Shown one piece after another: positions 24,230-49,848 of a stretch of DNA of 64,000 nucleotides (positions are counted from its first letter, which is position 1; each line of letters opens with the position of its first letter). Under the pieces are notes generated by a model. It worked only from the letters and a program-made list of their open reading frames with translations, searched no databases and was not told the origin of the DNA. Made by a program: the position numbers and the translations under genes. Source of the DNA: Methylobacterium durans (GTDB lineage Bacteria; Pseudomonadota; Alphaproteobacteria; Rhizobiales; Beijerinckiaceae); NCBI RefSeq assembly GCF_003173715.1, contig NZ_CP029550.1:6724376-6788375 (forward strand), read 5' to 3'.

Positions 24230-25489
24230 TCAGGAGGCGGCCCCTGTCCTGCCCGGCTCCCGCTCGGGCAACCGGACGCGAACGACGGTTCCGCGACCGA
24301 TCTCGCTCTCGATCGTCAACCGCCCGCGGTGGCGGTTCAGGGTGTGCTTGACGATCGCGAGGCCGAGGCCCGTCCCGCCCTGCTGGCGGCTCGACGTCAC
24401 GTCGACCCGGTAGAACCGCTCGGTGAGGCGGGGGATGTGCTCGGGCGCGATGCCGGCACCATCATTCGTGACGGCGAGTTCGATCTCGGGCTCGCCGAGC
24501 CGCCCGAGCGGGTCGCGGGCAAGCGAGACCGTCACGTGGGCGCCGCCATACTTCACCGCGTTCTCGATCAGGTTCTCCACCACGCGCAGAAGCTCGTCGC
24601 GGCTGCCGAGGACGGGATAATCCCCCTCCTCCGCCCGCAGCGTCACGGAAACGCCGCGCTCCGCCGCGAGCGGGCCCTGCGCGTCCACCATCTGGCGGGC
24701 GATCTGCCCGAGATCGACCGTCTCGGTCGGCGCGACGTGCTCGCGCAACTCGATCCGCGACAGGGAGAGCAGATCGTCGATGAGCCGCGTCATCCGCTGC
24801 GCCTGCGTGCGCATGATGGCGAGGAAGCGCTCGCGCGCAGCGACGTCGTTGCGGGCGGGGCCCTGCAGCGTCTCGATGAAGCCGAGGAGCGAGGCGAGCG
24901 GTGTCCGCAGCTCGTGGCTGGCATTGGCCACGAAATCGACCCGCATCGCCTCAAGCCGCTGGGCCGAGGTGAGGTCGCGCAGGAACAGCACCACGTTCGG
25001 CTGACCCCCCGCCTGCGGCATCGGCAGGGCGCCGATCTGCACCTCGAAGCTTCGCTCGGTCGGCACGCGTGTGGCGTAGCCGGTCTTCAGGGGCTGGCCG
25101 GTCCGCAGGACCGCCTCGATGCCGTCGAGGATCTCCGGCGCCCGCAGGGCGAAGGAGAGCGGGTGGCGCAGCTTCAGGTTCGGGAAGAGTGCTCGGGCGG
25201 CGGGGTTTGCCTCGATGACGACGGAGCGGCGATCGATCAGGATGACGGGATCGGGGATGTTGGCGAGCAGCGCCTCGGCGATGGCGTGGCGGGCCGGGCT
25301 CGCGGCCTCCAGCGGCGCGGCGACGGGGACACGTTGGCGTCCGCCGATCGCCCCTCCGAGGCCGGCGGCGGCGAGGGAAGCGGCAACGAGGGCGAGATCG
25401 AGGCTTCCGTCGAGCCAGGCGACGGCGAGCAGGAAGGCTGCCGCCACGCTCGCCCCCGTCCAGGCGGCCCGGCGTGCGCCCTCTTCCAT
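24230..25489 (-). CDS. phoR: PhoR-type sensor histidine kinase
   Basis: A membrane kinase of 419 residues. Two short hydrophobic helices lie near 12-28 and 32-50. A PAS domain (AEALLANIPDPVILIDRRS, ANPAARALFP) is followed by the dimerisation H-box FVANASHELRTPLASLLGF with His192. The ATPase domain has N box VVENLIENAVKYGG, G1 NDGAGIAPEHI and G2 GGTGLGLAIVKH. The architecture is that of PhoR, the phosphate-starvation kinase of PhoB. The usual phoB or pst genes are not adjacent in the window, so phosphate sensing is inferred from architecture only. Confidence 0.85.
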   Translation of the reverse strand: MEEGARRAAWTGASVAAAFLLAVAWLDGSLDLALVAASLAAAGLGGAIGGRQRVPVAAPLEAASPARHAIAEALLANIPDPVILIDRRSVVIEANPAARALFPNLKLRHPLSFALRAPEILDGIEAVLRTGQPLKTGYATRVPTERSFEVQIGALPMPQAGGQPNVVLFLRDLTSAQRLEAMRVDFVANASHELRTPLASLLGFIETLQGPARNDVAARERFLAIMRTQAQRMTRLIDDLLSLSRIELREHVAPTETVDLGQIARQMVDAQGPLAAERGVSVTLRAEEGDYPVLGSRDELLRVVENLIENAVKYGGAHVTVSLARDPLGRLGEPEIELAVTNDGAGIAPEHIPRLTERFYRVDVTSSRQQGGTGLGLAIVKHTLNRHRGRLTIESEIGRGTVVRVRLPEREPGRTGAAS

Positions 25490-25540: not shown

Positions 25541-26608
25541 TCACGGCCGCCCGTCCGGATCGGCGCCGCGGCGCACCTGCTGCGCCCGCTTGAAGATCTC
25601 GTAGGCCCCGAGCATCGCGAGGGCGAGGATGAAGGGCACGAGGTAGTAGCAGACCCGGAACAGCAGCAGCGAGCCGAGCACCTGGTCCCGCGGCAGGCTG
25701 GACAGGGCGAGAAGGATCGTCGCCTCGAACACCCCGAGGCCGCCCGGCGCGTGGCTCGCGATGCCGAGCATGGCGGCGAGCACGTAGACGGCGAGGAATG
25801 TGGTGAAGCCGATCGTCAGGCCCGGCGGCAGCAGCACGTAGAGCACGGCCGCGGCGGCGCAGACGTCGCCGATGCCGACGAGCATCTGGCTGAAGGAGAC
25901 CGAGGCGCCGGGCAGTTCCAGCCGCCAGCCCTTCACCTTCACGCTGCGCCGCTTGAGCGAGACCCAGGCGAGATAGCCGAGCACCGCGACGAGGGCGGCG
26001 AGGCCGACCCCCTGGTTCAGCCGGATCGACGTGAAGGTCAGTCCCGCGAGCTGGCCCGCCTCGACGATGAGGCTGAGGCCCAGCACGACGCCCATGCCGA
26101 GCCAGAAGGTGAAGCCCGCGATCACTGTGAGCGCGGCGATCTTCGGGGCTGACAGCCCTTCCCGGGAGTAGATCCAGTAGCGGATCGTTCCCGCCGTGAA
26201 GAGCGGGAAGCCTAGGGTGAAGCTCACCGCGTAGCTCGTGAACGAGGCGAGCGCCGTGATGCGGTAACGGACCTTCACCTTGAGCTGGCGCAGCGCCAGC
26301 GCGTCGTAGCCGGTGAGGAACAGGTAGCTCACGCAGACGAACAGGAAGGCGAGGCCGAGCTGCTTCGAAGTCGCCGCCGTGAAGGCCGCGTGCAGCTCCG
26401 ACCACGTGACGGTCTGGACGAGCTTCCACAGGACGCCGATCGACACCGCGAACAGGATCACGCTCGCGGCGGTGCCGATCCAGGCGTAGCGGCTCCGCAT
26501 CCCCGAGGACCGGGCGACCTGCGGCACGCCGGCGGCTTCCGCCGTCCGATCGGCCTCGATCGCCTCGGCGTCGTCGAGCGCCTTCTGATGCTGTCCGACA
26601 AAATTCAT
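25541..26608 (-). CDS. YbhN/UPF0104 membrane protein (LPG synthase flippase-domain family)
   Basis: A protein of 355 residues with about eight hydrophobic segments, for example GTAASVILFAVSIGVLWKLV and LGLAFLFVCVSYLFLTGYDA, and the family motifs TSYAVSFTLGFPLFTAGTIRYW, given here for the YR/W pattern, and ASHAPGGLGVFEATIL. This matches the lysylphosphatidylglycerol-synthase membrane domain (YbhN/UPF0104), thought to move lipids or lipid-linked molecules across the membrane. The soluble aminoacyltransferase domain of MprF is absent. No catalytic role can be assigned. It runs in the same direction as phoR but is separated from it by 51 bases. Confidence 0.85.
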   Translation of the reverse strand: MNFVGQHQKALDDAEAIEADRTAEAAGVPQVARSSGMRSRYAWIGTAASVILFAVSIGVLWKLVQTVTWSELHAAFTAATSKQLGLAFLFVCVSYLFLTGYDALALRQLKVKVRYRITALASFTSYAVSFTLGFPLFTAGTIRYWIYSREGLSAPKIAALTVIAGFTFWLGMGVVLGLSLIVEAGQLAGLTFTSIRLNQGVGLAALVAVLGYLAWVSLKRRSVKVKGWRLELPGASVSFSQMLVGIGDVCAAAAVLYVLLPPGLTIGFTTFLAVYVLAAMLGIASHAPGGLGVFEATILLALSSLPRDQVLGSLLLFRVCYYLVPFILALAMLGAYEIFKRAQQVRRGADPDGRP

Positions 26609-26799: not shown

Positions 26800-27438
26800 T
26801 CACCGTTGCATGAAGCGCAGGCCCGCGAGGTGAGCCGCGGCTTCGGACAGGCCCGTGCGGATGCGTTCGGCCACGCTCGGCGATGTGCAGACGTAGGTCG
26901 GGCTCGGATGCGGGATGGCGACGACGGGCAGATCCGGCCGGAGCGCCGCGATCGCCGGCCGCGCCTCGCCGGCGAAGCGCCCGGCCAGGACCGCCACGGC
27001 GAGGTGCGGCAACAGGTCGAGGAGCGGCGCCAGATAGGCGGCCGCCGCCTTCGCTTCCACCCGGCGCGGTGCCCGGTTCAGGGCGCCCTCCGCGTGGATC
27101 ACCCAGGGCACCGCGTTCCAGATCAGGGTGTCCCGGCGCGCGATGCCGGCCTCACGGAGGAAGCGGAACAGGTTGGCGGAGGTCCCCGTCGCGTTGTCGC
27201 GGGAGACGAAGCCGGTTCGGAAGATCGCCGGGCCCGGCGTCTCGAGGAGCAGCAGCAGCCGCGCGCCGATGCCGCCGTCGAGTGGGTCGGGATCGGGCAC
27301 CGGCGCCTGCCGCTCCGCCGCGATGGTGCGGGCCAGATCCCGCAGGGGCGCGAGATGGGGCGATCCGACGAGGGCGCGCCGCGCGGCGAGGATCGCCGGA
27401 TCGGCGAGGCTCTTCGGCGCGTCGGGTTCAGTCGCCAT
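26800..27438 (-). CDS. Uracil-DNA-glycosylase-fold protein in a biosynthetic operon
   Basis: A protein of 212 residues with the motifs of the UDG superfamily: LLLLETPGPAIF (motif 1 region, about 62-73), DNATGTSANLF, TLIWNAVPW with Asn108, and AIPHPSPTYV with His177 of motif 2. It aligns with none of the well-known families by eye: motif 1 has Glu-Thr-Pro-Gly-Pro rather than GQDPY or GEAPG. The ATG at 27438 overlaps the stop of the PIG-L gene by 11 bases, so it belongs to the inositol/YcaO operon and is its last gene. It may repair DNA, or it may be a glycosidase-like enzyme recruited to the pathway. Confidence 0.75.
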   Translation of the reverse strand: MATEPDAPKSLADPAILAARRALVGSPHLAPLRDLARTIAAERQAPVPDPDPLDGGIGARLLLLLETPGPAIFRTGFVSRDNATGTSANLFRFLREAGIARRDTLIWNAVPWVIHAEGALNRAPRRVEAKAAAAYLAPLLDLLPHLAVAVLAGRFAGEARPAIAALRPDLPVVAIPHPSPTYVCTSPSVAERIRTGLSEAAAHLAGLRFMQR

Positions 27439-28186
27439 CGTGCCCCGGGACGCCCGCCGGCAGGGTGCCGGAGACGCGGAAGCGCTCGACCCCACCCTCC
27501 TCGGAGAGCCGGCGGGACAGGCCCTCGCGCCCGCCGAACTGGAAGCCGATCTGCGTCCCGTAGGCCGCGCAGGCGGCCGCCTTGCGGACCTCGGCCGCCG
27601 GCGTCAGCCGGATCTCCCGCTCCCCGAGATCCGTGAAGCGGGCGCGCAGCGGCTCCTTCGGGGCGGCTTTGCGCACCGTGTAGGGGAAGTCGCGCCACCA
27701 CAGGACCGGCAGCCTCGATCCGACGGCGTCGAGCGCCCGGACCATCTGGACGTGATCGACATGGCCACCGATCGCCTGAGGGCTCAGGAGAAGATCGGGC
27801 CGCACGGCCGCGACGAGATCGGCCAGGGCCCGAGCGAGATCCGGGACGATGGCATCGTCGTCCCGCGTCTCCTCGAACAGCTCGGGTGCCGAGCCGTAGC
27901 CGCGGTGCGGCGCCTCCCGGAACGGCAGGTGGGTCGGCGCGGCGATGCCGAGGGCCGCCGCCGCCGCCCGGTCCTCGTCGCGGCGAAGCGCCATGTAATC
28001 GACCTCCGCCGGCAGACCCTTGTCGAGCTGGCAGGCGAGCGCGAAGCCCTGCGGCTCGGGCACGCTGCCCGTGAACAGGGTCGCCATGACGACCTGCCAG
28101 CCGCCTTCAGCCAGCATCGCCAGCGTGCCGCCGCAGGAGAAGGCGGCATCGTCGAGATGGGGCGAGAGGGCGAGCGCAATGGGCAT
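27428..28186 (-). CDS. PIG-L family N-acetylglucosaminyl deacetylase
   Basis: A zinc-dependent deacetylase of 252 residues in the LmbE/PIG-L family. The N-terminus has the metal motif SPHLDDAAFSCGGTLA (His10, Asp12, Asp13, and the GG). The second zinc histidine is in the GGHVDHVQMVRAL segment. Relatives such as MshB, BshB and PIG-L remove the acetyl group from GlcNAc attached to inositol, malate or phosphatidylinositol. The gene lies 9 bases after the GT4 gene, so the expected pair is transfer of GlcNAc, then deacetylation. Acceptor identity is inferred from the inositol-phosphate synthase in the same operon. Confidence 0.88.
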   Translation of the reverse strand: MPIALALSPHLDDAAFSCGGTLAMLAEGGWQVVMATLFTGSVPEPQGFALACQLDKGLPAEVDYMALRRDEDRAAAAALGIAAPTHLPFREAPHRGYGSAPELFEETRDDDAIVPDLARALADLVAAVRPDLLLSPQAIGGHVDHVQMVRALDAVGSRLPVLWWRDFPYTVRKAAPKEPLRARFTDLGEREIRLTPAAEVRKAAACAAYGTQIGFQFGGREGLSRRLSEEGGVERFRVSGTLPAGVPGHDGD

Positions 28187-28195
28187 GGTGCCGGC

Positions 28196-29434
28196 CTAGA
28201 GGAGGTGCGGCTCCGCCCGGAACCGACAGGACGGATCGACGGGCAGGTCCGGCGAGAAGCGCGTGTCCGGATGTGCACCCGCGATCTCGGCGTAGATCCC
28301 CATGATCTGGCGGCCGACCGTCTCCCAGGAATAGACCCGGCGGCACTCCTCCAGCCCCCCACCGGCGATGCGGCGGCGCAGCGCCGCGTCTTCGATCACG
28401 CGGGCGAGCGCGTCCGTGAGGGCGGCGACGTCGCCGGGCTCGGTCAGGAGCCCGTTCTCCCCGTCGCGCAGGCAATCGGAGACGCCGACCGAGTGGGTCG
28501 AGACCACGGCGAGCCCGGCCGCCATCGCCTCCAGGATCGTGTTCGAGAAGCCCTCGGCGTAGGTCGGCGAGACGAAGACATCGGCCTGCCGGTAGAGGTC
28601 CGGCACGGTGGCGTAGTCGGCGTAGCCCGTGAAGCGAAGCCGCTCCTCGGGCAGGTCGCGCTCGGCGGCCCGCGCCTGCGCGGCCTCGACGTCGGGGCCG
28701 ATGCCCGAGATCGTCGCGGCGAACGGCATGCCGCGATCGCGCAGGCGCCCGAGCGCGTCGACGAAATCGAGCACGCCTTTCCGCCGGTCGACGCGACCGT
28801 GATAGAGGAGACGAACCGGGCCGGCATGCAGCTCGGGAAGCCCGTCCGCATGGGGCTGCGTGAAGCGCGCCGTGTCGACCGCGCCGGGCACGATGGTGAA
28901 GCGGCCCGGGTCGGTGCCGAGGCGCTCGCAGACCTCAGCCACGAAGGAGCGGCCGCCGATGAGGAGCGCGTTGGCGTGGTCGAGAACCGCGCACATGGCG
29001 CGCCGGTGCGTCTCGCAGCAGGAGCCGACCCAGTGGCCGTCTCCGCCCTGGATCGAGACCACGTTCGGCACGCCGAGCCGGCGGGAGGCCAGCAGGACCG
29101 CCCAGCCGGTCGGGTAGCCGTACTGCGCGTGCAGGACGTCGAAGGGCGCGCGCGCGTGCTCGGCCGCGATCGTCTCGACCATCGCCTCGACGTCGCGCTC
29201 GAAGTCGCCGCCCTCCTGCTCGCCGAGCTGCTCGAGGCCGATCACCCGAACGCCCGGCACGGGCGGGGGCGGGCCGCCGCCGTAGACGCGGGTGCCGAAG
29301 GCGTCGCCCCGGTACTGGCTGATCATCGTCACGTCATGCCCGGCGCCGACGAGCTCGCGCAGGAGGTTCTGCGCGTAGACGCTCATGCCGGATATCGCCG
29401 GGAAGTAGCGCCGGCTGACGAAGCAGATCCTCAT
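28196..29434 (-). CDS. GT4-family glycosyltransferase
   Basis: A GT-B fold glycosyltransferase of 412 residues, starting MRICFVSRRYFPAISGMSVY. The C-terminal donor domain has LLYHGRVDRRKGVLDFVDAL, FTGYADYATVPDLYRQADVF, and the retaining GT4 motif EGFSNTILE (E-x7-E). MshA, BshA and many lipopolysaccharide transferases share this layout. It overlaps the TIM-barrel gene by 4 bases (ATGA) and is followed 9 bases later by the PIG-L deacetylase. Sugar donor and acceptor are unproven; GlcNAc onto an inositol is the natural guess. The start is placed at the ATGA overlap, because upstream codons lie within the neighbouring gene. Confidence 0.88.
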   Translation of the reverse strand: MRICFVSRRYFPAISGMSVYAQNLLRELVGAGHDVTMISQYRGDAFGTRVYGGGPPPPVPGVRVIGLEQLGEQEGGDFERDVEAMVETIAAEHARAPFDVLHAQYGYPTGWAVLLASRRLGVPNVVSIQGGDGHWVGSCCETHRRAMCAVLDHANALLIGGRSFVAEVCERLGTDPGRFTIVPGAVDTARFTQPHADGLPELHAGPVRLLYHGRVDRRKGVLDFVDALGRLRDRGMPFAATISGIGPDVEAAQARAAERDLPEERLRFTGYADYATVPDLYRQADVFVSPTYAEGFSNTILEAMAAGLAVVSTHSVGVSDCLRDGENGLLTEPGDVAALTDALARVIEDAALRRRIAGGGLEECRRVYSWETVGRQIMGIYAEIAGAHPDTRFSPDLPVDPSCRFRAEPHLL

Positions 29435-30309
29435 CGGACAGGGGTTTCCCGTACGGTCATGTCGGGCGGCGGCAAGTCCGGGCCCGGGCGTCGGCATTGC
29501 TTCAGGTATTCGATGGCGGCCGGAATCATCGCGTCCGCCCGGTGGCTCTCGCGGGACAGCTCGACGCAGATGAGCTTGCCGAAATGGATCGCATCGAGGG
29601 CGTCGAGCACGCCCGGCACGTCCATGTCACCCTCGCCGAAGGGCAGATGCACGTGGATGCCGCGCGCCATGTCCTCGATCGCCACGGTGCCGATGCGGGG
29701 CGCGAATTCGGCGACCGCCGCGGCGGGCTCGCGCTCGCCGGTGACGAGGCAGTGGCCGGTGTCGAGGGCGAGGCAGAGACCCTCCACCTGAAGCGCGGCG
29801 AAGTCGTCCAGGGTCTCGACCAGCATGCCGGGCTCGGGCTCCAGGCAGGGCACGACGCCGTTCTCGCGGGCGTAGGCCACCACCTCCTGCAGCCCGTCCA
29901 CCAGCCAGTGCCGCGCCTCCGCAGGGTCGATTCCGGGCTTCGGCACACCGGCCCAGAAGGACACGGCCTCGGATTTCAGGATCGCGCCGATCTCGATCGC
30001 CCGCTTCAGGAAGCCGATCCGGCGGGCGCGGCCCGTCGCGTCGGCCGTCACCAGGGTCGGCTCGTGCTTGGCCCGCGGATCGAGGAGGAAGCGGGCCCCG
30101 GTCTCGATCACCGAGCCGAGCCCAAGGCGCTCCAGGCGGCTCGCGACCCGCTCCGCCTCCCGCGCCCAGGTCTCGGCGAAGGGGTCGAGGTGGTGGATGT
30201 CGAGGGTGAGCGCGACGCCGTCGTAACCGGCCCCGGCGATGAGGTCGATCGCGTCGTCGAGGCGGTGATTGGCCGCCCCGTTGGTGTTGTAGGCGAAGCG
30301 GAGACTCAT
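29431..30309 (-). CDS. TIM-barrel sugar isomerase/epimerase-like protein
   Basis: A protein of 292 residues of the xylose-isomerase-like / AP-endonuclease-2 superfamily. Candidate metal ligands occur in order: CLEPEPGMLV (Glu), CLALDTGHCLV (Asp and His), GIHVHLPFGEGDMD and CVELSRESH. The N-terminus MSLRFAYNTNG and GYDGVALTLDIHHL are typical of the first strands. Members isomerise or epimerise sugars and inositols (IolE, IolI). Next to Ino1 and an oxidoreductase, acting on an inositol or keto-inositol is plausible. It overlaps neighbours on both sides by 4 bases (ATGA). Confidence 0.82.
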   Translation of the reverse strand: MSLRFAYNTNGAANHRLDDAIDLIAGAGYDGVALTLDIHHLDPFAETWAREAERVASRLERLGLGSVIETGARFLLDPRAKHEPTLVTADATGRARRIGFLKRAIEIGAILKSEAVSFWAGVPKPGIDPAEARHWLVDGLQEVVAYARENGVVPCLEPEPGMLVETLDDFAALQVEGLCLALDTGHCLVTGEREPAAAVAEFAPRIGTVAIEDMARGIHVHLPFGEGDMDVPGVLDALDAIHFGKLICVELSRESHRADAMIPAAIEYLKQCRRPGPDLPPPDMTVRETPVR

Positions 30310-31895
30310 GCGGCCCGTCCCCTCTGCTCCAGCCGGAACGGCGCGTGGTGCGATTCCGGCTCGCGGTAGAGGGGATAATGGCTGCCGACGATCTCCTCGG
30401 CCAGCGCCACGTCGAAGAGCGGCTGACCGCCGAAGCGCTCGATCGCCTCGGGCGTCAGGCGGATCGGGCGCAGGGTCTCGCTCTGCGTGCCGAAGCGGAC
30501 GAGGGGGTGATCGCGCTCGATGAGCTTCCGGGCGTTGCGCTCGCCGATCCGGTAATAGCTCATGGTCTCGACCTCGAGCCCCGGCACGATCGCCTTGACG
30601 ACGCCCACCCCGCCGCGCGGCGGCGAGCAATCGACGTAGAGAACGTCGAACCCGGCCTCCAGAAGCCGCTCGCAGGCGATCGCGCCGCGGGCGTGCCCGT
30701 CGGCGGCGGGCGTCGTCGGCAGCTCCGCGAAGGCTTTCGTCGCGCGCTCGGAATAGACGGTGTCGGCGAGCACCGCGTGCAGATCCTCCGGCGGCAGCAC
30801 GATCCATTCGAGCATGGCCTTCAGCGCCCGGCTCTCCTCCAGGTCTAGGCTCGGCAGGGCCTTCTCGATGAAGGCGTGGACGTAGCCCGGCGGCGTGACC
30901 CGCTCGGCGAAGGCGAGGGGCCCATGGCCGAAGGCCTTGCGCACCCGCGCCGCCTGGAATTCGAGGAGCGCCTTGCGCAGGGCCCGCTCCCGGTCCGGGT
31001 CGCAGGCCTCGCCGCAGGCCGAGAGCGCGATCGGCGTCGGCGCGTCGGCGGGATTCCGGTCGTAGCCGACGACGTAGAGGTTCGTCAGGCCGAACTGGTC
31101 GGTGGCGAATTTCGGCAGGGCCCGGATGCCGAGCGATTCCAGCCTTGCCAACATGCCTGAGGTCTCGGGCCCAAGCCCTTGCGAGAGATCGAGCATCACG
31201 CCCTGGTCGAGGGCGCGGAACAGGAGGCCGTTGCCGTCCCGCTGCAGCAGTTCCAGCACCCCGTGGCCGAGGGCGAAGGGCACGTCCGGCCCGGCGCCGA
31301 GCCCGTTCGTGATCAGGTTCGTGAAGGGCTTGTAACCCTCGGACAGCTCGAAATAATCCGTCGCCGCCACGTCGAGGGGCATCAGCACCGTCTCGCCGGT
31401 CGGGTGGCGGGTGGCGGCCGTCCATTCGAGCACGGTGTCGCGGCCCACGGGCGAGCCCGCGGGCAGGCCGAGGGTGAGCGGGTCGGCGACGGAGCGGGCG
31501 CCGTGGACCCGCACGAGGTCGTTGTAGGACCCCCGCTCCTTCCTGCGCGGGATCAGCGCCAGCGAGGGCATCAGGTTCTCGGCGATCTCGGCCACCGCGC
31601 CGATAATCGCCTCGTCGTCGGTCGCCCCGTAGCCGATGCCGCTCGGCATGGCGCCGACGAAGTAGGGATCGTCGAGGAAGAGCGAGACGAACCAGACCGG
31701 GATCCCGGTCCGGTCGAGGGGCGCCAGGGGAAAGCCGACGATGCGCCCTTCCGGCAGCACGTCGAGATAGGCCCGCACGGGCTCCGGAAGGGATTGCGGC
31801 AGCCCGTCGATCCGGCGCTTCTGCCCGAACCGATAGGCGCGCGGCGCCTTCAGGCGGGCGTGGCGGGCGCGGTCGTCCTGATCAAGCTCGGTCAT
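30306..31895 (-). CDS. YcaO-domain ATP-dependent enzyme
   Basis: A protein of 529 residues. The YcaO ATP-binding elements are visible: GIGYGATDDEAIIGAVAEIAEN (here cited for Glu103 and Glu106; the usual ER is EN), NLITNGLGAGPDVPFALG and HGVLELLQRDGNG (Glu215, Arg219, Asp220). The C-terminal part ends with VVKAIVPGLEVETMSYYR, as in cyclodehydratase-type members. YcaO enzymes phosphorylate an amide backbone to make azolines, thioamides or amidines. No TfuA, no E1-like partner and no precursor peptide is encoded nearby. Its position between an oxidoreductase and a sugar isomerase suggests a non-ribosomal substrate. The ATG at 31895 follows a 50-base gap. Confidence 0.88.
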   Translation of the reverse strand: MTELDQDDRARHARLKAPRAYRFGQKRRIDGLPQSLPEPVRAYLDVLPEGRIVGFPLAPLDRTGIPVWFVSLFLDDPYFVGAMPSGIGYGATDDEAIIGAVAEIAENLMPSLALIPRRKERGSYNDLVRVHGARSVADPLTLGLPAGSPVGRDTVLEWTAATRHPTGETVLMPLDVAATDYFELSEGYKPFTNLITNGLGAGPDVPFALGHGVLELLQRDGNGLLFRALDQGVMLDLSQGLGPETSGMLARLESLGIRALPKFATDQFGLTNLYVVGYDRNPADAPTPIALSACGEACDPDRERALRKALLEFQAARVRKAFGHGPLAFAERVTPPGYVHAFIEKALPSLDLEESRALKAMLEWIVLPPEDLHAVLADTVYSERATKAFAELPTTPAADGHARGAIACERLLEAGFDVLYVDCSPPRGGVGVVKAIVPGLEVETMSYYRIGERNARKLIERDHPLVRFGTQSETLRPIRLTPEAIERFGGQPLFDVALAEEIVGSHYPLYREPESHHAPFRLEQRGRAA

Positions 31896-31945
31896 GGTCC
31901 TCGATAAACCCCGTTCCGCATCGCCGTACGGCCGTTGCCGTGCCC

Positions 31946-32977
31946 TCAGCGGCCCGCCAGCGGCCCTCCCCGGTGGCGCTCGCTCTCGTAGGCGTCCACC
32001 ACGAGCCGCATCGTGTGCAGGTCGCGCTCGACCGAGTAGGCGCCGCGTTCCTCCGGGCGGCGCAGGGCCGAGCCGAAGGCGCGCACCTGCTCCAGGAAGG
32101 GCGAGGCCTGCGTGTCGAACGCGATCTCCTCCGAGCGGCCGCCAGCGCCGTCCGTGAACGTCACCGTGCCGCCGGCCACCTGCCCCATCGTATCGATCGC
32201 GGTGAGCATGCCCCTGGTGCCCACCACCTCCAGCCGGCGCCGGGGCAGCGCGTCGGGGCAATTGTAGGCGACGTGGAGGTTGGCGAGCACGCCCGCACCC
32301 GTGCGCCCGATCAGCAGGGCACCGTCGTCGACCGCGTAATCCTGCGCCCGGGCCTGGGTCAGGGCGACGATCTCGGCGATCGATTCGCCGGTGAGGAAGT
32401 CGACGAGGTCGATCCCGTGGGGGGCGAGGTCCATCAGCGCGCCGCCTCCCGCTTGGACGGGGTCGATGCGCCAGTTGTCGAGGCCCTCGACGGAGGTCCA
32501 GGCCCGATCCAGCCAGCAGGCATAGACGATGCGCACCGCGGTCACGGTGCCGAGGCGGCCTGCCTCGATCAGGGCCCGCATGGCGCGGTGGCCGGGATGG
32601 TGGCGCTGGTCGAAGGCGGTGCCGTAGAAGATGCCGCTGCCGCGCACGGCTTCGGCCATCGCCTCGGCATCGCCGAGCCGCGCCGCCATCGGCTTCTCGC
32701 AGAGCACGGCCTTGCCGGCCCGGGACAGCGCCACCACCGCCTCGCGATGCAGATGGTTCGGGGTGGCGACGTAGACGGCCTCGATCTCGGGGTCGGCCAG
32801 AAGCTCTGGAAGTGTCGCGTAAGCCCGCGCGCCCTCCGCGTCCGCCGCCTGGCGGGAACCCTCGCCCGGGTCGCAGACGGCGACGAGCCGATGCCCGGCA
32901 GCCCGGATGCCCGGCGCCATGTAGTCCCGGGCGACCCAGCCGTAGCCGACGATGCCCCAGCCGACGTTGTCGCCCAT
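31946..32977 (-). CDS. Gfo/Idh/MocA-family oxidoreductase
   Basis: An NAD(P)-dependent dehydrogenase of 343 residues. The Rossmann start WGIVGYGWVARDYMAPGI and the family motif VLCEKPMAARL with its lysine are present, then GGGALMDLAPHGIDLVDFL with the catalytic-region His. Family members oxidise or reduce sugars and inositols (for example inositol 2-dehydrogenase IolG). Together with Ino1 and the TIM-barrel protein, it could form a keto- or amino-inositol intermediate. The ATG overlaps the methyltransferase stop by one base (TGATG). Confidence 0.88.
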   Translation of the reverse strand: MGDNVGWGIVGYGWVARDYMAPGIRAAGHRLVAVCDPGEGSRQAADAEGARAYATLPELLADPEIEAVYVATPNHLHREAVVALSRAGKAVLCEKPMAARLGDAEAMAEAVRGSGIFYGTAFDQRHHPGHRAMRALIEAGRLGTVTAVRIVYACWLDRAWTSVEGLDNWRIDPVQAGGGALMDLAPHGIDLVDFLTGESIAEIVALTQARAQDYAVDDGALLIGRTGAGVLANLHVAYNCPDALPRRRLEVVGTRGMLTAIDTMGQVAGGTVTFTDGAGGRSEEIAFDTQASPFLEQVRAFGSALRRPEERGAYSVERDLHTMRLVVDAYESERHRGGPLAGR

Positions 32978-34172
32978 CACCAGCGCTCCGGCAGGTCGAC
33001 GAATTCTCGCCGCCTCACGCGCTCGGCCTCGGGCGCGGTCGGAGGCCCGACCCAATCGAGCGCGTCCGGTCCCTCCGAGCGCATCGGGTAGGTGACGATG
33101 GCGGCGTATTCCTGCTCGTAGCGCTCCGACGGCCATCGGATCTCGTACGCGCCGGCCCCGTCCGGCGCGTAGAGCGGGTTCAGGCGCAGATGCGTGCCCT
33201 CCCGCGGCAGGGTCAGGCCGTCGACGATCGCGCGCGGCGCCGGGCGCATCCCCGGACCCGCCACCACCGAGAAGGCCTCGCAGCCCCGGATCTCGGCCGG
33301 CAGGCGGGGCGCGGGGGCGCGGGTCTCCACGAGGGCCTGGGTCAGCTCGGCGTCGTCGTAGACGAGGGCGTCCGGGAACAGCTCCTCGATCTCCTCCGCC
33401 GAGACGGCCCGGCCCGCCGAGAAGCCCGGGCGGTCGCTGTTGTGGATGTGGCTCAAGGCCAGCCAGCCGTCATCGCCCGCGTTCTGGCGCAGGCATTCGA
33501 GCAGACCCGCCTTGTCGTCGAGGAAATAGAAGGCGTCGTTGCAGACGACGAGATCGACCGGCGCGCCGCTGACGGGCCAGTGGGGCGAGGCCGCGTCGAA
33601 GCAGACGAGCTGCGCGCCCTCCCCACCACCCAGTGGCGGGCGACCCAGAGCTTGGCGAAGACCACGTCCGCACCCGCGACCTTGGCGCCGTGGCGCCTCA
33701 ATTCGCGCAGGTAATGCCCGATGCCGCAGGCGAACTCGAAGACGCAGGCCGGGCCGTTCCAGTGCGCCTCCAGCAGGGCGAGGCCGGCCAGGAAGGTCGG
33801 GTCGCTCCAGCGGTGCAGGAAGTAGTCGCCGACGCGGCCCCAGCCGAGGAGGCGGACCGCGTCCCGCAGGCTGGCCTCCTCGCGACCGTGCACGAGGGCC
33901 GCGAGATCGGCCGGGTCCGCCGGCGGGCCGTTCCACCAATCGTCCTGGTCGGCGAGCAGCGCCACGAGCGCCTTCTCGCGGCCGTTCTCCGCACCCGCAT
34001 CGTCGAGATGCGCCAGGACCTCGGCGATGAGGCCGTCCCGGCCGATGCGCAGGTACGGTATGCCGTCGATCACCGGCCAGCGCGCGCCGGTCTCGGCGTC
34101 GCGCAGCGAGTGCGGCGTGTCGGAGCGGAGCGCGTTGCCGGTCTCGGGCGAGGTCAGGGTGAAGGGGATCAT
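32977..34172 (-). pseudogene. SAM-dependent methyltransferase with Trm112-like N-domain, frameshifted as read
   Basis: The N-terminus (FTLTSPETGNALR, then ARWPVIDGIPYL) looks like a Trm112-type domain, here lacking the zinc cysteines. It is followed by a class I methyltransferase fold: VFEFACGIGHYLREL for motif I and VDLVVCNDAFYFLDD for motif II. The frame breaks near 33621-33625 in a G run (minus strand GGTGGGGAGGG). One missing G explains the shift from ARHWVVG to EGAQLVCFDAASPHW, and the whole protein would have about 399 residues. Translation may start at the ATG at 34172 or at a GTG at 34208 that overlaps the upstream stop. O- or N-methylation of the pathway product is the likely role. 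Confidence 0.85.
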
Positions 34173-34204
34173 GCTCTCTCTACCCGCCCCCGTCGCGTTT
34201 GCGA

Positions 34205-35122
34205 TCACGGGATGCGCATATCCTTCAGCACCCGATCATGGAACCCCTTCACCGGCCCGGCATGGACGAGTTCCATCTCGCCGAGCACGGTCTCCATGGT
34301 GAGCGAGGCGGCGCGCAGGTGCTGGGCGATCTGGAGGACCCGGTCGATCGCATCCGCCGCGTGGAAGGCGCGGCCCTCCGCGGTGGCGTCGTCGGGCAGA
34401 ACCGCCCGCGCCCGCTCGATCGTCGCGCGCAGGGGCGGCTCGAGCGCGTCGAGCGCCCATTGCGTGGTCCGCGCCATGATCGGCCCGAGATGGTCGCCGA
34501 GCAGCATCTCGCCGGTGAAGCCCGCATCCGGCATCGCCGCGTTGTGGAAATGGTGCGCCATCGCCGCCAGGAACACGGTGGTGGGGTCGGCCCGGTAGAA
34601 CGGGCTCAGCACCACGCCGTAGACCGCGACCATCAGGCAGTGCTCAGCGTGATTCTCCGGCGGCTCCAACAGGATGCGGGGCTTGCCCGGGCAGGTCACG
34701 CCCGCCCGCGGCTGCTGCGCCAGCGCCGCGACGAAACCCGGCAGCGGACCGGCCACCAAGTTGTCCCGCTCTCGGAGCCGTTCACGCAGCCGTCCGCGCA
34801 GATCGGCCTCGACCTCGGGCGTCACCGCTTCGAAGCCCGCGACCAGCACGTCGCCGATCGCGGCCTCGGAGAGGCCCGCTGCCGCCAGGAAGGCGTCGTC
34901 GAGGTCGCAGAGTCGGCAGGCGGCGAGCGTCTTGGCGGTGATCTCCAGGGCCACGGCCTCGGGATCGGCCCCGCCTGTCAGAGCGCTCCAGCCCTGCGCG
35001 AAGAGACGCTCCGCGACCGAGCCCGTCCGTCCGGCCGAGCGGACGCGCTTGAGGTCGTTCAGCTCGACGAGAAGCTCGCGGAGCGCGACGGGTGCTGCGG
35101 CGCCCTCGAACGGGCCCGGCAT
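34205..35122 (-). CDS. HD-fold metal protein of unknown function
   Basis: A protein of 305 residues. The central region resembles the HD superfamily of phosphohydrolases and diiron oxygenases: ENHAEHCLMVAVYG (His158, His161), then FLAAMAHHFHNAAMPDAG (His190, His191, His193) and a late FHAADAIDRVLQIAQHL. The typical His-Asp doublet is replaced by His-His, so metal chemistry may differ from a normal HD phosphatase. It overlaps the inositol-phosphate synthase stop by one base and would be translated right after it. Dephosphorylating inositol 3-phosphate, or oxidising it in the way of MIOX/PhnZ, are two reasonable ideas; neither is shown by the sequence. Confidence 0.6.
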   Translation of the reverse strand: MPGPFEGAAAPVALRELLVELNDLKRVRSAGRTGSVAERLFAQGWSALTGGADPEAVALEITAKTLAACRLCDLDDAFLAAAGLSEAAIGDVLVAGFEAVTPEVEADLRGRLRERLRERDNLVAGPLPGFVAALAQQPRAGVTCPGKPRILLEPPENHAEHCLMVAVYGVVLSPFYRADPTTVFLAAMAHHFHNAAMPDAGFTGEMLLGDHLGPIMARTTQWALDALEPPLRATIERARAVLPDDATAEGRAFHAADAIDRVLQIAQHLRAASLTMETVLGEMELVHAGPVKGFHDRVLKDMRIP

Positions 35123-36312
35123 CAGTGCACGCCGAGCCAGTCGAGCAGCATCTGCTCCTGCTTGCCGAAGGCGTGCTCCGGCCCGTGGCCGTTCTTCACC
35201 ATCGGCGCCTTGAAGAAGGTCGAGAGCTGTTCCTGCACGCCGCCGTCGCCGCGCTTCTTGGCGAGGTCCAGCACGCGGGCGATCTCGATGACGAGCGGCG
35301 CGGCCAGGATCGAGTCCTTGCAGAGGAAGTTCACCTTGATCTGCATCCGCTGGCCAAGGAAGCCGGTGACGTCGATGTTGTCCCAGGCTTCCTTGTCGTC
35401 GCCGCGGGGACGGTAATAGTGGATGTGCACGAGGTGGTCCTCGACCGGGTAGCCGAGGATCGAGTCGAGCACCGTGCCCTTGGTGTTGAGCTTCGATTGC
35501 AGCGAGCTCGGATCGTTGAGGGCGAGGCCGTCGCGGTTGCCCAGGATGTTCGTCGAGAACCAGCCGTCGACATGGAGGGCGCGGGCCTTCAGCGCCGGCG
35601 CCAGCACCGTCTTCATCATGGTCTGGCCCGTCTTGCCGTCCTTGCCGGCGACCGGGACGTTGAGCTCGCGCGCGAGTTCCAGGAGAGCGGGGACGTCGGC
35701 CGCGACGCTCGGGGTGAAATTCGCGTACGGCACGCCGCTCTTGATCGCCGCGTAGGCGTAGAGCATCGCCGGGCTGATCGACTCGTCGCTCGCATCGAGA
35801 CCCTTCTCGAAGGCGGCCGAGGAGTTCAGCACCGGCTCGCTGAGATCGGGCCAGCGCTCGGTCGAGGCGAGGTTGACGACGACCACCTCGTCGAGGTTGC
35901 TCTCCTGGCGGAACCGACGCAGGTCGTTGGCGATGATCGAGACCGTTTCGCGGTGATCCTTGGCGACGATGCGGTTGCCACCGTCGATGTTCTTGCAGAA
36001 CTTGGCGCTGCCGACCGCCGGCCAGGGCGTGATGCCCTTCAGGACCTGGGCGCCGTTCTCGATGTCCTGCTTGGTGAGCACGCCGTGGCCCGCCGCGGCG
36101 GAGGCGAGGTCGTCGCTGTTGAGGTCCCAGCCGCCGAAGACGAGATCCTTGTAGTCGGCCATGCCGGCGACGGGGACGTTCGCGAGCGGCAGGCCGTCGA
36201 GCCTGTTCGATCCCGATTTGATCATCTCGATGCCGGCGATCGCTGTGGTGGCGACGGCGCCACCCATGCCAACGAACGCAACGCCGACGCGGCGACCGGT
36301 CTGCATGCTCAT
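35122..36312 (-). CDS. ino1: Inositol-3-phosphate synthase
   Basis: A protein of 396 residues that converts glucose 6-phosphate to 1L-myo-inositol 3-phosphate with bound NAD. The N-terminus has the NAD-binding GVAFVGMGGAVATTAIAG. The catalytic region includes VAGKDGKTGQTMMKTVLAP, LALNDPSSLQSK and VHIHYYRPRGDDKEAWDN, which are hallmarks of bacterial Ino1. Upstream of the ATG lies AAGGAAG, about 10-16 bases away. It is the first gene of a nine-gene minus-strand operon, so it would commit glucose 6-phosphate to that pathway. Confidence 0.93.
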   Translation of the reverse strand: MSMQTGRRVGVAFVGMGGAVATTAIAGIEMIKSGSNRLDGLPLANVPVAGMADYKDLVFGGWDLNSDDLASAAAGHGVLTKQDIENGAQVLKGITPWPAVGSAKFCKNIDGGNRIVAKDHRETVSIIANDLRRFRQESNLDEVVVVNLASTERWPDLSEPVLNSSAAFEKGLDASDESISPAMLYAYAAIKSGVPYANFTPSVAADVPALLELARELNVPVAGKDGKTGQTMMKTVLAPALKARALHVDGWFSTNILGNRDGLALNDPSSLQSKLNTKGTVLDSILGYPVEDHLVHIHYYRPRGDDKEAWDNIDVTGFLGQRMQIKVNFLCKDSILAAPLVIEIARVLDLAKKRGDGGVQEQLSTFFKAPMVKNGHGPEHAFGKQEQMLLDWLGVH

Positions 36313-36623
36313 CGGAACCGAACTTCCTTGCTGTGAAGACGCGGGGGCGTCGGACGGGCCAGGAGAGCCAGCCCCGCGTGGGACTAGGTAACTGGCTCCG
36401 CCAGGCTTCGTTCCAAGCCCCGCTCGGACAAATTTCTGCCTCCGTTCCCCTGAACCGCGCCCGAACGAGCCGTTAAAAATTCGTGAAAGCGCAGAGTTAA
36501 CCGACTCTTAAGGGTGCCACGGTTGGATCACCCGGTCGTCCCATTGTGGACACAGCGGGCGGCGACATAGCCGCCACTTGATCGAAGCCGCGCCCAAGCA
36601 AGCCGCGGCACGACAAAGGAAGA
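36313..36623. other. Divergent promoter region
   Basis: These 311 bases separate ino1 from the lytic transglycosylase gene. A gene-free AT-richer stretch at 36470-36520 (gttaaaaattcgtgaaag and agagttaaccgactct, the latter with 5-bp inverted arms) is the likely site of the two promoters. No ORF here is convincing, and I see no known operator. Confidence 0.6.
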
Positions 36624-48241: not shown

Positions 48242-48258
48242 TAGCCCGTCTTATTCAC
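48242..48258 (+). repeat. Left terminal inverted repeat of the IS1380-type element
   Basis: The sequence tagcccgtcttattcac is an exact inverted complement of 49832-49848. The transposase reading frame ends inside it (TGA at 48255-48257), as in many compact IS elements. Confidence 0.9.
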
Positions 48259-49724
48259 CGGGCAGTGGCTTGCGGCGTGTTTTGGGCTGATGGCGCGCGG
48301 GATCGGGCGTCTGTTCTGACGCGTGTGGACCTGGATCGTTCTGTCAGCACTGGAGGGACGGGAGCGGGTTTGTGGGCATCACGGCCCCTTGGTTTAGCCA
48401 GGTGCTGGGCGAGCGTGTCCGCGAGATGGCTCAGTAGGTCGCCTCAGGACAGGCGGCGGCGAAGGCGAGGCGAACCCGGCTGGCGGTCTCGCGGATGCGG
48501 GCGCCAAGCTTCAGGAGGCGCAGCCGGAGCGTGGCGAACTCGGCCGTGGCGAGGCGGTGCGCCTTCGGATGGCCTCACGCACGCTCAGCATCAGCCAGTA
48601 GGCCGCCGTGTGCAGGACGAGCCGCATCTGGTTGGCGGCGGATGCCGGCACGAGGTACGGTCGGAGGCGAGCTGGCTCTTGTGCAAGCTTGATCAGGTTC
48701 TCGGCCTGTCCGCGGCACAGTACAGGTCGGCATAGAGCCATTCCGGCGTGCCGGTCGTGATGTTGTGACGACATAGCGGATGTCGAGGCCGAGCCGGGTC
48801 GCCTCGATACGGGCGGCGACGCGCCGCTCTTGCCGCCAGGATTTGCCGCGTGCGTGGTCTCGCAAAGCCCCGCACCGCATCCTCGTTGTCGATGGCTCGC
48901 ACAACTCTGATGTGATCGGCCGTCTGTTCCACCTTGGCCGCCAGCGCTTTGGTGCCGGTCAACCGAAGACGTAAGCGACGCGGTTGTCCTCGCACCAGTC
49001 CATTGCCTCGGGCCGGCCGTAGTGGCCGTCGCCCCGGATGGTGATCGCGGTGTTGGGCCAGTGGCGGCGGATCGCCCGGACGAGGCGGCGCAGATGTCCA
49101 CGCACTTCGCGGCCCGAGGGCGTCTTGCCCGGCCGCAGGATCATCGCGACCGGCGGCTGGTGCGGTGTCGTAGACGTGGATCGGCAGAAAGCAGCGCCAT
49201 CGTGATGGGCGTTGAACAGCGACAGTTGCTGCTGGCCGTGCACCACGTCGCACGTGTCGTCGATGTCCAGGGTGACGGCGTCGGGCGGGACGGGGTAGCT
49301 GGCGCAGTAGAGGTCGACAGCACCCGCCCGAGCCGGATGAGGTCGCGCAGACCCGGCGTGTTCTCCAGCCGCGAGACGGTGGGCTGGCTCATCAGGTCGT
49401 GCCCGCTCTCGGGCAGGCGGCCGCAGGCGAGCTTGAAGGCGGGGTCGGCGCGCAGGTGGTCGAGGTCGTCCGATCCTCATACCCGCAGGCAATCGCCAGG
49501 ATGCGCGCCAGCAGGATCTCGGGCAACGGATGCAGAACCCGGCTGGGGTCACGACGGTCCGGGATCACAGCAGCGAGCTTGTCGGCAATGTCCAACCGCC
49601 GGGCGGCCTGGGCGAGCAGCAGGACGCCGCCATCCGAGGTCAGGCGTCCGCCATCGAAGGCGGCTGTGAGCTTCTTGCCCCGAACGGATGGAAACGCGAA
49701 CGGGAGACACGTAGGATCGGACAT
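48255..49724 (-). pseudogene. IS1380-family transposase, several frameshifts
   Basis: The N-terminus MSDPTCLPFAFPSVRGKK, then AFDGGRLTSDGGVLLLAQAA and ILARILAIACGYED, is IS1380-type. The rest continues across frames: DLDHLRADPAFKLACGRLPE, SQPTVSRLENTPGLRDLI, VDLYCASYPVPPDAVTLDI (the DDE Asp region), CFLPIHVYDTA, ILRPGKTPSGREVRGHL and TIRGDGHYGRP. Shifts occur near 49474, 49317, 49195 and 49165, plus more after about 48960. Almost all act as single-base deletions. Either the copy is decayed, or the sequence is poor here. The last part, HTAAYWLMLSVREAIRR, is still recognisable. Confidence 0.85.
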
Positions 49725-49831
49725 GGCGGCGTGGCAGGCTCGGTGCGATCTGAAGGCTTGGCGTCAGCACCCAATCCCTAAGCTACATCAATGCTTTATG
49801 CTACGCTCGCCACCCCAGATCCACCGTCCTC

Positions 49832-49848
49832 GTGAATAAGACGGGCTA
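49832..49848 (-). repeat. Right terminal inverted repeat of the IS1380-type element
   Basis: The sequence gtgaataagacgggcta is the exact inverted complement of the left repeat at 48242-48258. Confidence 0.9.

Follow-up and report, generated by a model that had tools for sequence, protein, structure and literature searches.

A conserved and mobile ino1-ycaO gene cluster of Methylobacterium, with a stress-type promoter site and a putative inositol-derived product

Close to the end of the 6.79 Mb contig of Methylobacterium durans (NZ_CP029550.1), a minus-strand operon joins a gene for myo-inositol-3-phosphate synthase (ino1) to genes for a YcaO enzyme, a GT4 glycosyltransferase and a PIG-L deacetylase. 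We analysed this operon within a stretch of 64,000 nucleotides that forms the terminal part of the contig (positions 6,724,376 to 6,788,375; hereafter the window, whose numbering is used unless the contig is named). A first-pass annotation made from the letters of this DNA had described nine minus-strand genes at 26800-36312, from ino1 to a gene for a UDG-fold protein, and we recovered all nine in the order given. The gaps of 32, 50 and 9 bases and the overlaps of 1-11 bases that it had reported also fit the gene coordinates.

Gene content of the ino1 operon

The features of the locus are the following.

36390..36414, minus strand: EcfG-type promoter-like site, GGAAC-N16-AGTT, 77 bases before the ino1 ATG
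35122..36312, minus strand: ino1, myo-inositol-3-phosphate synthase (PF07994 221 bits, PF01658 119 bits)
34205..35122, minus strand: HD-fold protein with a helical N-terminal part, a possible phosphohydrolase
32977..34172, minus strand: class I S-adenosylmethionine-dependent methyltransferase, ATG at 34172, frame broken near 33.6 kb
31946..32977, minus strand: Gfo/Idh/MocA NAD(P)-dependent sugar or cyclitol dehydrogenase (PF01408, PF22725)
30306..31895, minus strand: YcaO ATP-dependent enzyme of a subfamily of its own (PF02624 147 bits, cut-off 25.7)
29431..30309, minus strand: xylose-isomerase-like TIM barrel (epimerase, isomerase or dehydratase fold), common to ino1-type ebo operons
28196..29434, minus strand: GT4 glycosyltransferase (PF13692 115 bits)
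27428..28186, minus strand: PIG-L family N-deacetylase (PF02585 69 bits)
26800..27438, minus strand: UDG-fold protein (PF03167 38 bits)
25541..26608, minus strand: LPG_synthase_TM membrane protein, downstream neighbour (PF03706)

Ino1, whose best solved relative is 7nwr (E 1.5e-87), is encoded by a single gene in the genome, redundant contig end aside (see below). In the HD-fold protein the HD motif is apparently HH (H190, H191). The top NCBIfam model for the Gfo/Idh/MocA protein is inositol 2-dehydrogenase IolG (112 bits, under its cut-off of 355), and its best solved relatives are 1,5-anhydro-D-fructose reductases. The YcaO protein, whose subfamily we aligned from 14 sequences, has a sole sequence match in the PDB, MJ1094 (6pe3, E 1.4e-7). 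The nearest solved relatives of the GT4 enzyme are Tll1590 (6kih) and the phosphatidylinositol mannosyltransferase PimA. Its gene probably begins at 29434, overlapping the preceding gene by 4 bases, and not at 29497: in many relatives the alignment sets in only around residue 20-22 of the longer open reading frame (ORF), although in some it sets in earlier.

Conservation, horizontal spread and linked features

A search with the YcaO protein returned 2201 proteins. Among the 120 YcaO matches listed, those at 79-93% identity belong, where named, to Methylobacterium or Methylorubrum, one being named only as a Hyphomicrobiales metagenome-assembled genome, and those at 62-74% include proteins under Beijerinckiaceae, Salinarimonas and Microvirga names. 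From the 84,980 species genomes scanned, 212 loci were confirmed; we compared the best 80, of which 75 are named Methylobacterium or Methylorubrum. The nearest locus found, the window's own loci left out, is that of M. segetis (97% for YcaO, 99% for Ino1). The gene for this YcaO is present in all 16 sampled genomes of Methylobacterium, the window's own included, and in 28 of 248 genomes and 5 of 43 genera of the family sample. In the wider samples it is found in 6 of 297 genomes for the order, 3 of 385 for the class and 6 of 398 for the phylum, as well as in 6 of 82 genomes of a second alphaproteobacterial family (f103). Genome-level statistics given below ignore kinship, and genus-level values are set beside them.

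The first-pass annotation had proposed to look for the same neighbourhood in relatives, and it is indeed kept far beyond chance. At least eight of the nine segments occur in 91 of 93 loci longer than 9 kb, which carry 93 different YcaO sequences, and strand and order are identical in all 91 loci that could be tested. Two were set aside from the order test: L056, which lacks the GT4 and PIG-L genes and ends about 0.9 kb past YcaO, and L093, which lacks the methyltransferase gene. The least constant of the nine is the UDG-fold gene, which is near the cluster in 78 of the 93 loci and has the opposite orientation in five of the six f103 loci; it probably serves DNA repair and is loosely attached, rather than being a pathway enzyme. 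No description of the cluster turned up in the literature searched, which was covered mostly by listings and by passages for the papers cited here; this agrees with the earlier remark that no described pathway has this gene set.

The cluster is also found on plasmids of distant bacteria, and is thus mobile. On plasmid p546-2 of Roseomonas haemaphysalidis, the gene order is ino1, HD-fold, methyltransferase, Gfo/Idh, MBL-fold, YcaO, TIM barrel, GT4 and PIG-L. Two genes for spore photoproduct lyase, an ultraviolet (UV)-damage repair enzyme, lie one gene (mdoH) away from it, and a uvsE gene lies about 10 kb from its other end. A plasmid of Hymenobacter volaticus, a member of the Bacteroidota isolated from air, carries a cluster without the methyltransferase gene, with the Gfo/Idh gene annotated in two pieces and with an adjoining gene annotated bshB1. 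In the family sample, spore photoproduct lyase is present in 16 of 28 YcaO-positive genomes versus 3 of 220 negative ones (genus-level p 0.003).

The additional MBL-fold gene of the Roseomonas cluster recurs at the same place, between the Gfo/Idh and YcaO genes, in Hymenobacter, L130 and the f103 loci, and codes for a zinc-ribbon protein whose N-terminal ribbon holds four cysteines; L128 and L129 have the gene beside the cluster, on the other strand. The Methylobacterium operon lacks it, and the orthologue of M. durans is unlinked (contig 881047-881882), its frame being interrupted in the assembly. Its phylogenetic profile follows that of YcaO: it occurs in 28 of 28 YcaO-positive and 1 of 220 negative genomes of the family sample, the lone negative at 32% identity (Fisher p about 4e-36 by genome; 5/5 versus 1/38 by genus, p 6e-6). 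The four cysteines, an HxH motif, a further histidine and an aspartate are invariant in an alignment of eight members, and what we take to be the usual second-metal ligands of the MBL motif are not there. In more distant relatives (P0135, named Salinibacter ruber, and P0136-P0139), YcaO and an MBL domain form one fused protein, and such gene fusion is evidence that both proteins act together. The YcaO relatives from Salinibacter and Gemmatimonadota were recovered as proteins. Judging by profile and fusion, the MBL-fold protein is likely a partner enzyme of YcaO and the tenth member of the pathway. Its relatives include proteins from Lichenihabitans and Lichenibacterium, two genera whose names point to lichens. 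The first-pass annotation had noted neither the MBL partner nor the stress-type promoter, nor that the cluster has been transferred horizontally and that its Ino1 and TIM barrel are related to those of ebo operons (see below).

Upstream of ino1, the promoter-like site is the single match in the window to GGAAC-N16/17-NGTT; it is no proof by itself, because about one match is expected by chance. Comparison of loci is more informative: GGAAC-N16-NGTT occurs upstream of ino1 in 62 of 90 regions, which include the window's own site twice, versus 178 of 12116 background windows. This pattern was widened after a stricter one had given 2 of 90. The sites lie 63-104 bases before the start, mostly 72-78. 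When 77 distinct Methylobacterium upstream regions were aligned with no motif selection, the GGAAC columns were all conserved at 90% or more and the AGTT columns at 80% or more; 13 of the 16 spacer columns were conserved at 30-69%, and a few columns outside the motif equalled it. Passages of one source give the EcfG motif as GGAAC-N17-20-GTT, and one EcfG target of Sphingomonas melonis listed there bears the same AGTT variant (PMC6599016). From this likeness we infer that the ino1 operon may be under the control of the general stress sigma factor EcfG, in the PhyR-NepR regulon.

Proposed pathway and competing explanations

Taken together, these data make it very probable that the cluster encodes a real, conserved, mobile and stress-linked cyclitol pathway. 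Ino1 would supply an inositol phosphate, from which the HD-fold protein may remove the phosphate; the Gfo/Idh enzyme would oxidise the ring to a keto-cyclitol, which the TIM-barrel enzyme would isomerise or dehydrate, and the methyltransferase would cap a hydroxyl. The GT4 enzyme would add an N-acetylated sugar whose amine would be freed by PIG-L, and YcaO with its MBL partner would use ATP to activate a carbonyl (of an amide or a vinylogous acid), to which a nucleophile would be joined. The final compound might protect bacteria of leaves, lichens and air by absorbing UV light. The GlcN-inositol-like pseudodisaccharide that the first-pass annotation had inferred, with an amide activated by YcaO, is hypothetical in both respects.

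Few genera are commoner on leaves than Methylobacterium. The light-exposed hosts, the UV-repair neighbours and the association with spore photoproduct lyase make a sunscreen our leading guess. The explanation that we find best, and advance only tentatively, is a ten-gene stress-regulated pathway for a small inositol-derived, glycosylated molecule, a UV-absorbing protectant being the guess for its product. Absorption of UV light by this product is itself a somewhat doubtful proposal. Methylobacteria have been reported to make UV-absorbing compounds, including methylobamine, in passages of one source (PMC9664959), and the relevant passages of a review speak of their ultraviolet A (UVA) absorbers (PMC12573535); the product of the cluster is possibly such a UVA-absorbing compound. 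If so, the genes for a protective metabolite of Methylobacterium would be in hand, and YcaO chemistry would extend beyond peptides, with the MBL partner supplied.

Several observations weigh against this interpretation. There is no direct link from methylobamine to the genes of the cluster, and the example of UVA absorbers in those passages of the review is avobenzone, a misfit for a cyclitol (PMC12573535). An O-methylated chromophore cannot be general, because the Hymenobacter cluster has no methyltransferase gene, and stress by desiccation or salt would suit many of these hosts as well. Twelve of the 28 positive genomes (among them 4 of the 16 Methylobacterium genomes) lack spore photoproduct lyase, which 3 negative genomes do have. 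Of the 90 upstream regions 28 lack the promoter pattern, among them those of 16 loci bearing the name Methylobacterium, of the Hymenobacter and Roseomonas clusters and of every one of the six f103 loci, so that the site is common and not universal. The assignment of the HD-fold protein is based on weak fold matches, the IolG, IolE and Msh models all score far under their cut-offs, and the operon contains no ligase, transporter or self-resistance gene that would mark its product. Finally, to our knowledge, the YcaO enzymes described so far act on peptides or proteins.

A more specific form of the sunscreen proposal, which we regard as unlikely, is an independent second route by which bacteria would make mycosporine-like sunscreens, the ring coming from inositol rather than sedoheptulose. 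A keto-inositol would be isomerised or dehydrated to a gadusol-like enone, O-methylated in most hosts, and the YcaO-MBL pair, with a substrate other than a peptide, would replace the ATP-grasp enzyme and form the imine chromophore with the glucosamine amine. Once oxidised, dehydrated and methylated, inositol would look much like the core of mycosporine-like amino acids. Such a route would make the UVA absorber of Methylobacterium, and would spread from phylum to phylum on plasmids within a UV-tolerance kit. The known pathway to mycosporine-like amino acids consists of MysA, MysB, MysC and MysD, and the amine is joined in an ATP-dependent step, which YcaO could take on in the cluster through activation of a vinylogous acid. 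If a sunscreen is indeed the product, the two pathways would share a cyclitol-like ring, a methyltransferase and an ATP-dependent amine coupling, whereas the cluster has inositol phosphate synthase and YcaO in place of the cyclase and the ATP-grasp enzyme; neither a dehydroquinate-synthase-like cyclase nor an ATP-grasp ligase was found, in a search covering the operon only.

The closest plasmid relatives of the TIM barrel outside the cluster type are 44-51% identical and come from Streptomyces, other actinomycetes and Gemmatirosa. In three Streptomyces loci the TIM-barrel gene lies two genes from ino1, with a UbiA prenyltransferase gene between, in an operon that also holds EboA, TatD, EboE and phosphodiesterase genes; similar sets are found on a haloarchaeal plasmid and in Gemmatirosa. 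These plasmid-borne ebo operons resemble the cluster in Ino1 (37-40%) and the TIM barrel (44-50%, or 33% in the haloarchaeon), whose genes are near each other. Both types thus hold this pair in one operon, with four genes between here and the UbiA gene there. They differ in that ebo has UbiA prenyltransferase, EboA, TatD, EboE and EboF, and the cluster instead has Gfo/Idh, methyltransferase, YcaO, GT4, PIG-L and HD-fold genes. No Pfam family of UbiA-type EboC, TatD-type EboB or EboF was found in the nine genes and two downstream neighbours; an EboA model had no match in the genome, but none in any control genome either. Since they recur in ebo operons, Ino1 and the TIM barrel look like a cyclitol pair serving two different pathways, and if the proposed pathway is right, their sharing makes the chemistry of ino1-type ebo operons testable.

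The ebo operons with an inositol-phosphate synthase are carried by plasmids of Streptomyces (L143, L144, L145), Halocatena (L147) and Gemmatirosa (L146). Those of Streptomyces have an extra TIM-barrel enzyme besides EboE, and no EboD is annotated in the annotated stretches of the ino1-bearing operons, which possibly form a distinct ebo class.

The kinship with ebo bears on the rival that survives best, which we still consider rather unlikely: the product would be a cyclitol glycolipid, carrier or compatible solute of the sort proposed for ebo, with a role in transport, the envelope or desiccation tolerance and not in light absorption. The ebo operon has been proposed, in passages of one source, to make an isoprenoid-cyclitol compound (PMC5133447). 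Passages of another report ebo genes as needed for the UVA-induced sunscreen scytonemin in Nostoc, and interpret ebo as serving export, perhaps via a lipid carrier (PMC6282210). Ino1 and the TIM barrel, common to both, speak for this rival. An LPG_synthase_TM gene, whose membership of the cluster is uncertain, lies downstream in 74 of the 93 loci, and MdoH-like glucosyltransferase genes are nearby in L094, L129 and the f103 loci. Several cluster hosts are also desiccation-tolerant. Nevertheless, the operon lacks the UbiA prenyltransferase, TatD and EboF families, and this scheme has no place for YcaO, the MBL-fold protein or PIG-L.

It is improbable that the cluster makes a glucosamine-cyclitol used as a redox cofactor like mycothiol or bacillithiol, YcaO then being an unusual enzyme for ATP-dependent coupling or for sulfur insertion. 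Ino1, a GT4 enzyme and a PIG-L deacetylase do match the MshA/MshB/Ino1 gene pattern of the mycothiol pathway (Ino1, MshA, MshB, MshC, MshD), which in turn is without the dehydrogenase, isomerase, methyltransferase, YcaO and MBL-fold protein of the cluster, and a redox cofactor would leave the first three unexplained. The first-pass annotation had judged that this is not plain mycothiol, and the models concur, all being far under cut-off: MshA (TIGR03449) scores 71.3 bits versus 462.5, MshB (TIGR03445) 22.4 versus 224.35, and the best match of MshC (TIGR03447) in the genome 268.8 versus 485.1, at one place only. This single MshC-model match is probably CysS; among 14 control genomes, the same model exceeded its cut-off in 1 and stayed under it in the other 13. 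No MshD acetyltransferase was found among the operon proteins scanned, no genome-wide search being made. On model scores, membership of the mycothiol pathway is excluded, and a product working as a mycothiol-type cofactor is unlikely.

The stress-type promoter and the bshB1-annotated gene beside the Hymenobacter cluster would suit a redox cofactor, as would two matches of YcaO: MJ1094 was the sole solved YcaO recovered, and for two relatives the NCBIfam model that ranks first is that of McrA-glycine thioamidation (methanogenesis marker 1). However, this model (TIGR03266) gives 112 bits at most versus a cut-off of 365, the cluster differs from the McrA system in its MBL partner, and the operon contains no TfuA or sulfur carrier gene. 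We know of no McrA in bacteria carrying the cluster. The Roseomonas YcaO orthologue passes the YcaO kinase-domain model (78.8 versus 75.65 bits), and that of the window stays below it (27 bits).

Equally improbable is modification of a precursor peptide by YcaO, either as a ribosomally synthesized and post-translationally modified peptide or as a protein modification, the sugar genes decorating the peptide. Known YcaO enzymes act on peptide amides, the YcaO domain itself is present, with a SagD-like profile match of 75 bits (under the cut-off of 219), and some relatives have 176-228 bases before ycaO, which is room for a short gene. Yet the window's operon, with a largest gap of 50 bases, could not accommodate a precursor gene (the wider gaps of relatives and short ORFs outside the operon were not searched), and such a gene is not a conserved part of the cluster, because in other relatives ycaO overlaps the gene before it. 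Moreover, no E1-like or TfuA partner was found in 10 operon ORFs and 20 neighbour or cluster proteins, a genome-wide search not being made, and YcaO tracks with the MBL-fold protein instead.

Ordinary surface polysaccharide or lipopolysaccharide sugar synthesis, in whose clusters GT4, PIG-L and Gfo/Idh genes are common and for which a GT2/MdoH-like gene beside some loci could speak, is highly improbable, given that the conserved unit has no flippase, polymerase, ligase or nucleotidyltransferase, is nearly unchanged across Alphaproteobacteria and Bacteroidota, and would leave YcaO and the MBL-fold protein unexplained.

Regarding the direction of the pathway, the cluster resembles inositol catabolism (IolG, IolE, IolI) in its Gfo/Idh enzyme, with IolG as top model, and in its TIM barrel, which aligns with IolI (1i60) among many others; it differs in the low scores of the IolG and IolE models mentioned above. 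Since Ino1 would make inositol here, the direction is probably biosynthetic, unlike that of catabolism.

Contig ends, neighbouring genes and the methyltransferase frame

In several lineages the cluster has an MdoH-like GT2 glucosyltransferase gene as a close neighbour (L094 19266-20828, L129 3059-5122 and L113 16388-18544); no such gene was matched in the Methylobacterium loci compared. In the window, the LPG_synthase_TM gene is followed downstream, on the same strand, by a gene for a PAS-domain sensor histidine kinase (24230-25489). L132 has an ORF of 421 residues at the matching position, the likeness being one of position.

The two ends of the contig are redundant over about 40 kb and untrimmed: window positions 23953-64000 match contig positions 1-38414 at 99.8% identity. 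Hence the operon is a single locus, although genome searches report it twice. The two copies differ chiefly in short insertions and deletions, whose clustering suggests raw long-read ends, and in one insertion of 1.6 kb, present at 48242-49848 of the window, flanked by perfect 17-base terminal inverted repeats and absent from the other copy. This insertion resembles an insertion sequence and is apparently polymorphic in the sequenced culture.

The methyltransferase gene was confirmed in the operon with its ATG at 34172, as first annotated, but not as one open frame. In the window it is divided between two ORFs, the N-terminal part in 33453-34208 and the C-terminal part in 32977-33939, by a one-base frame difference near 33.6 kb that is seen in both contig-end copies. 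The two ORFs give partial matches to Methyltransf_23 below its cut-off, whereas intact relatives exceed the cut-off of methyltransferase families. The break is either a mutation that this strain really carries or an error of the consensus common to both copies. In all 92 relatives having the gene, both parts share one frame with no stop after the ATG; the span is free of stops throughout in 86 of them and has a single stop, before the ATG, in the other six.

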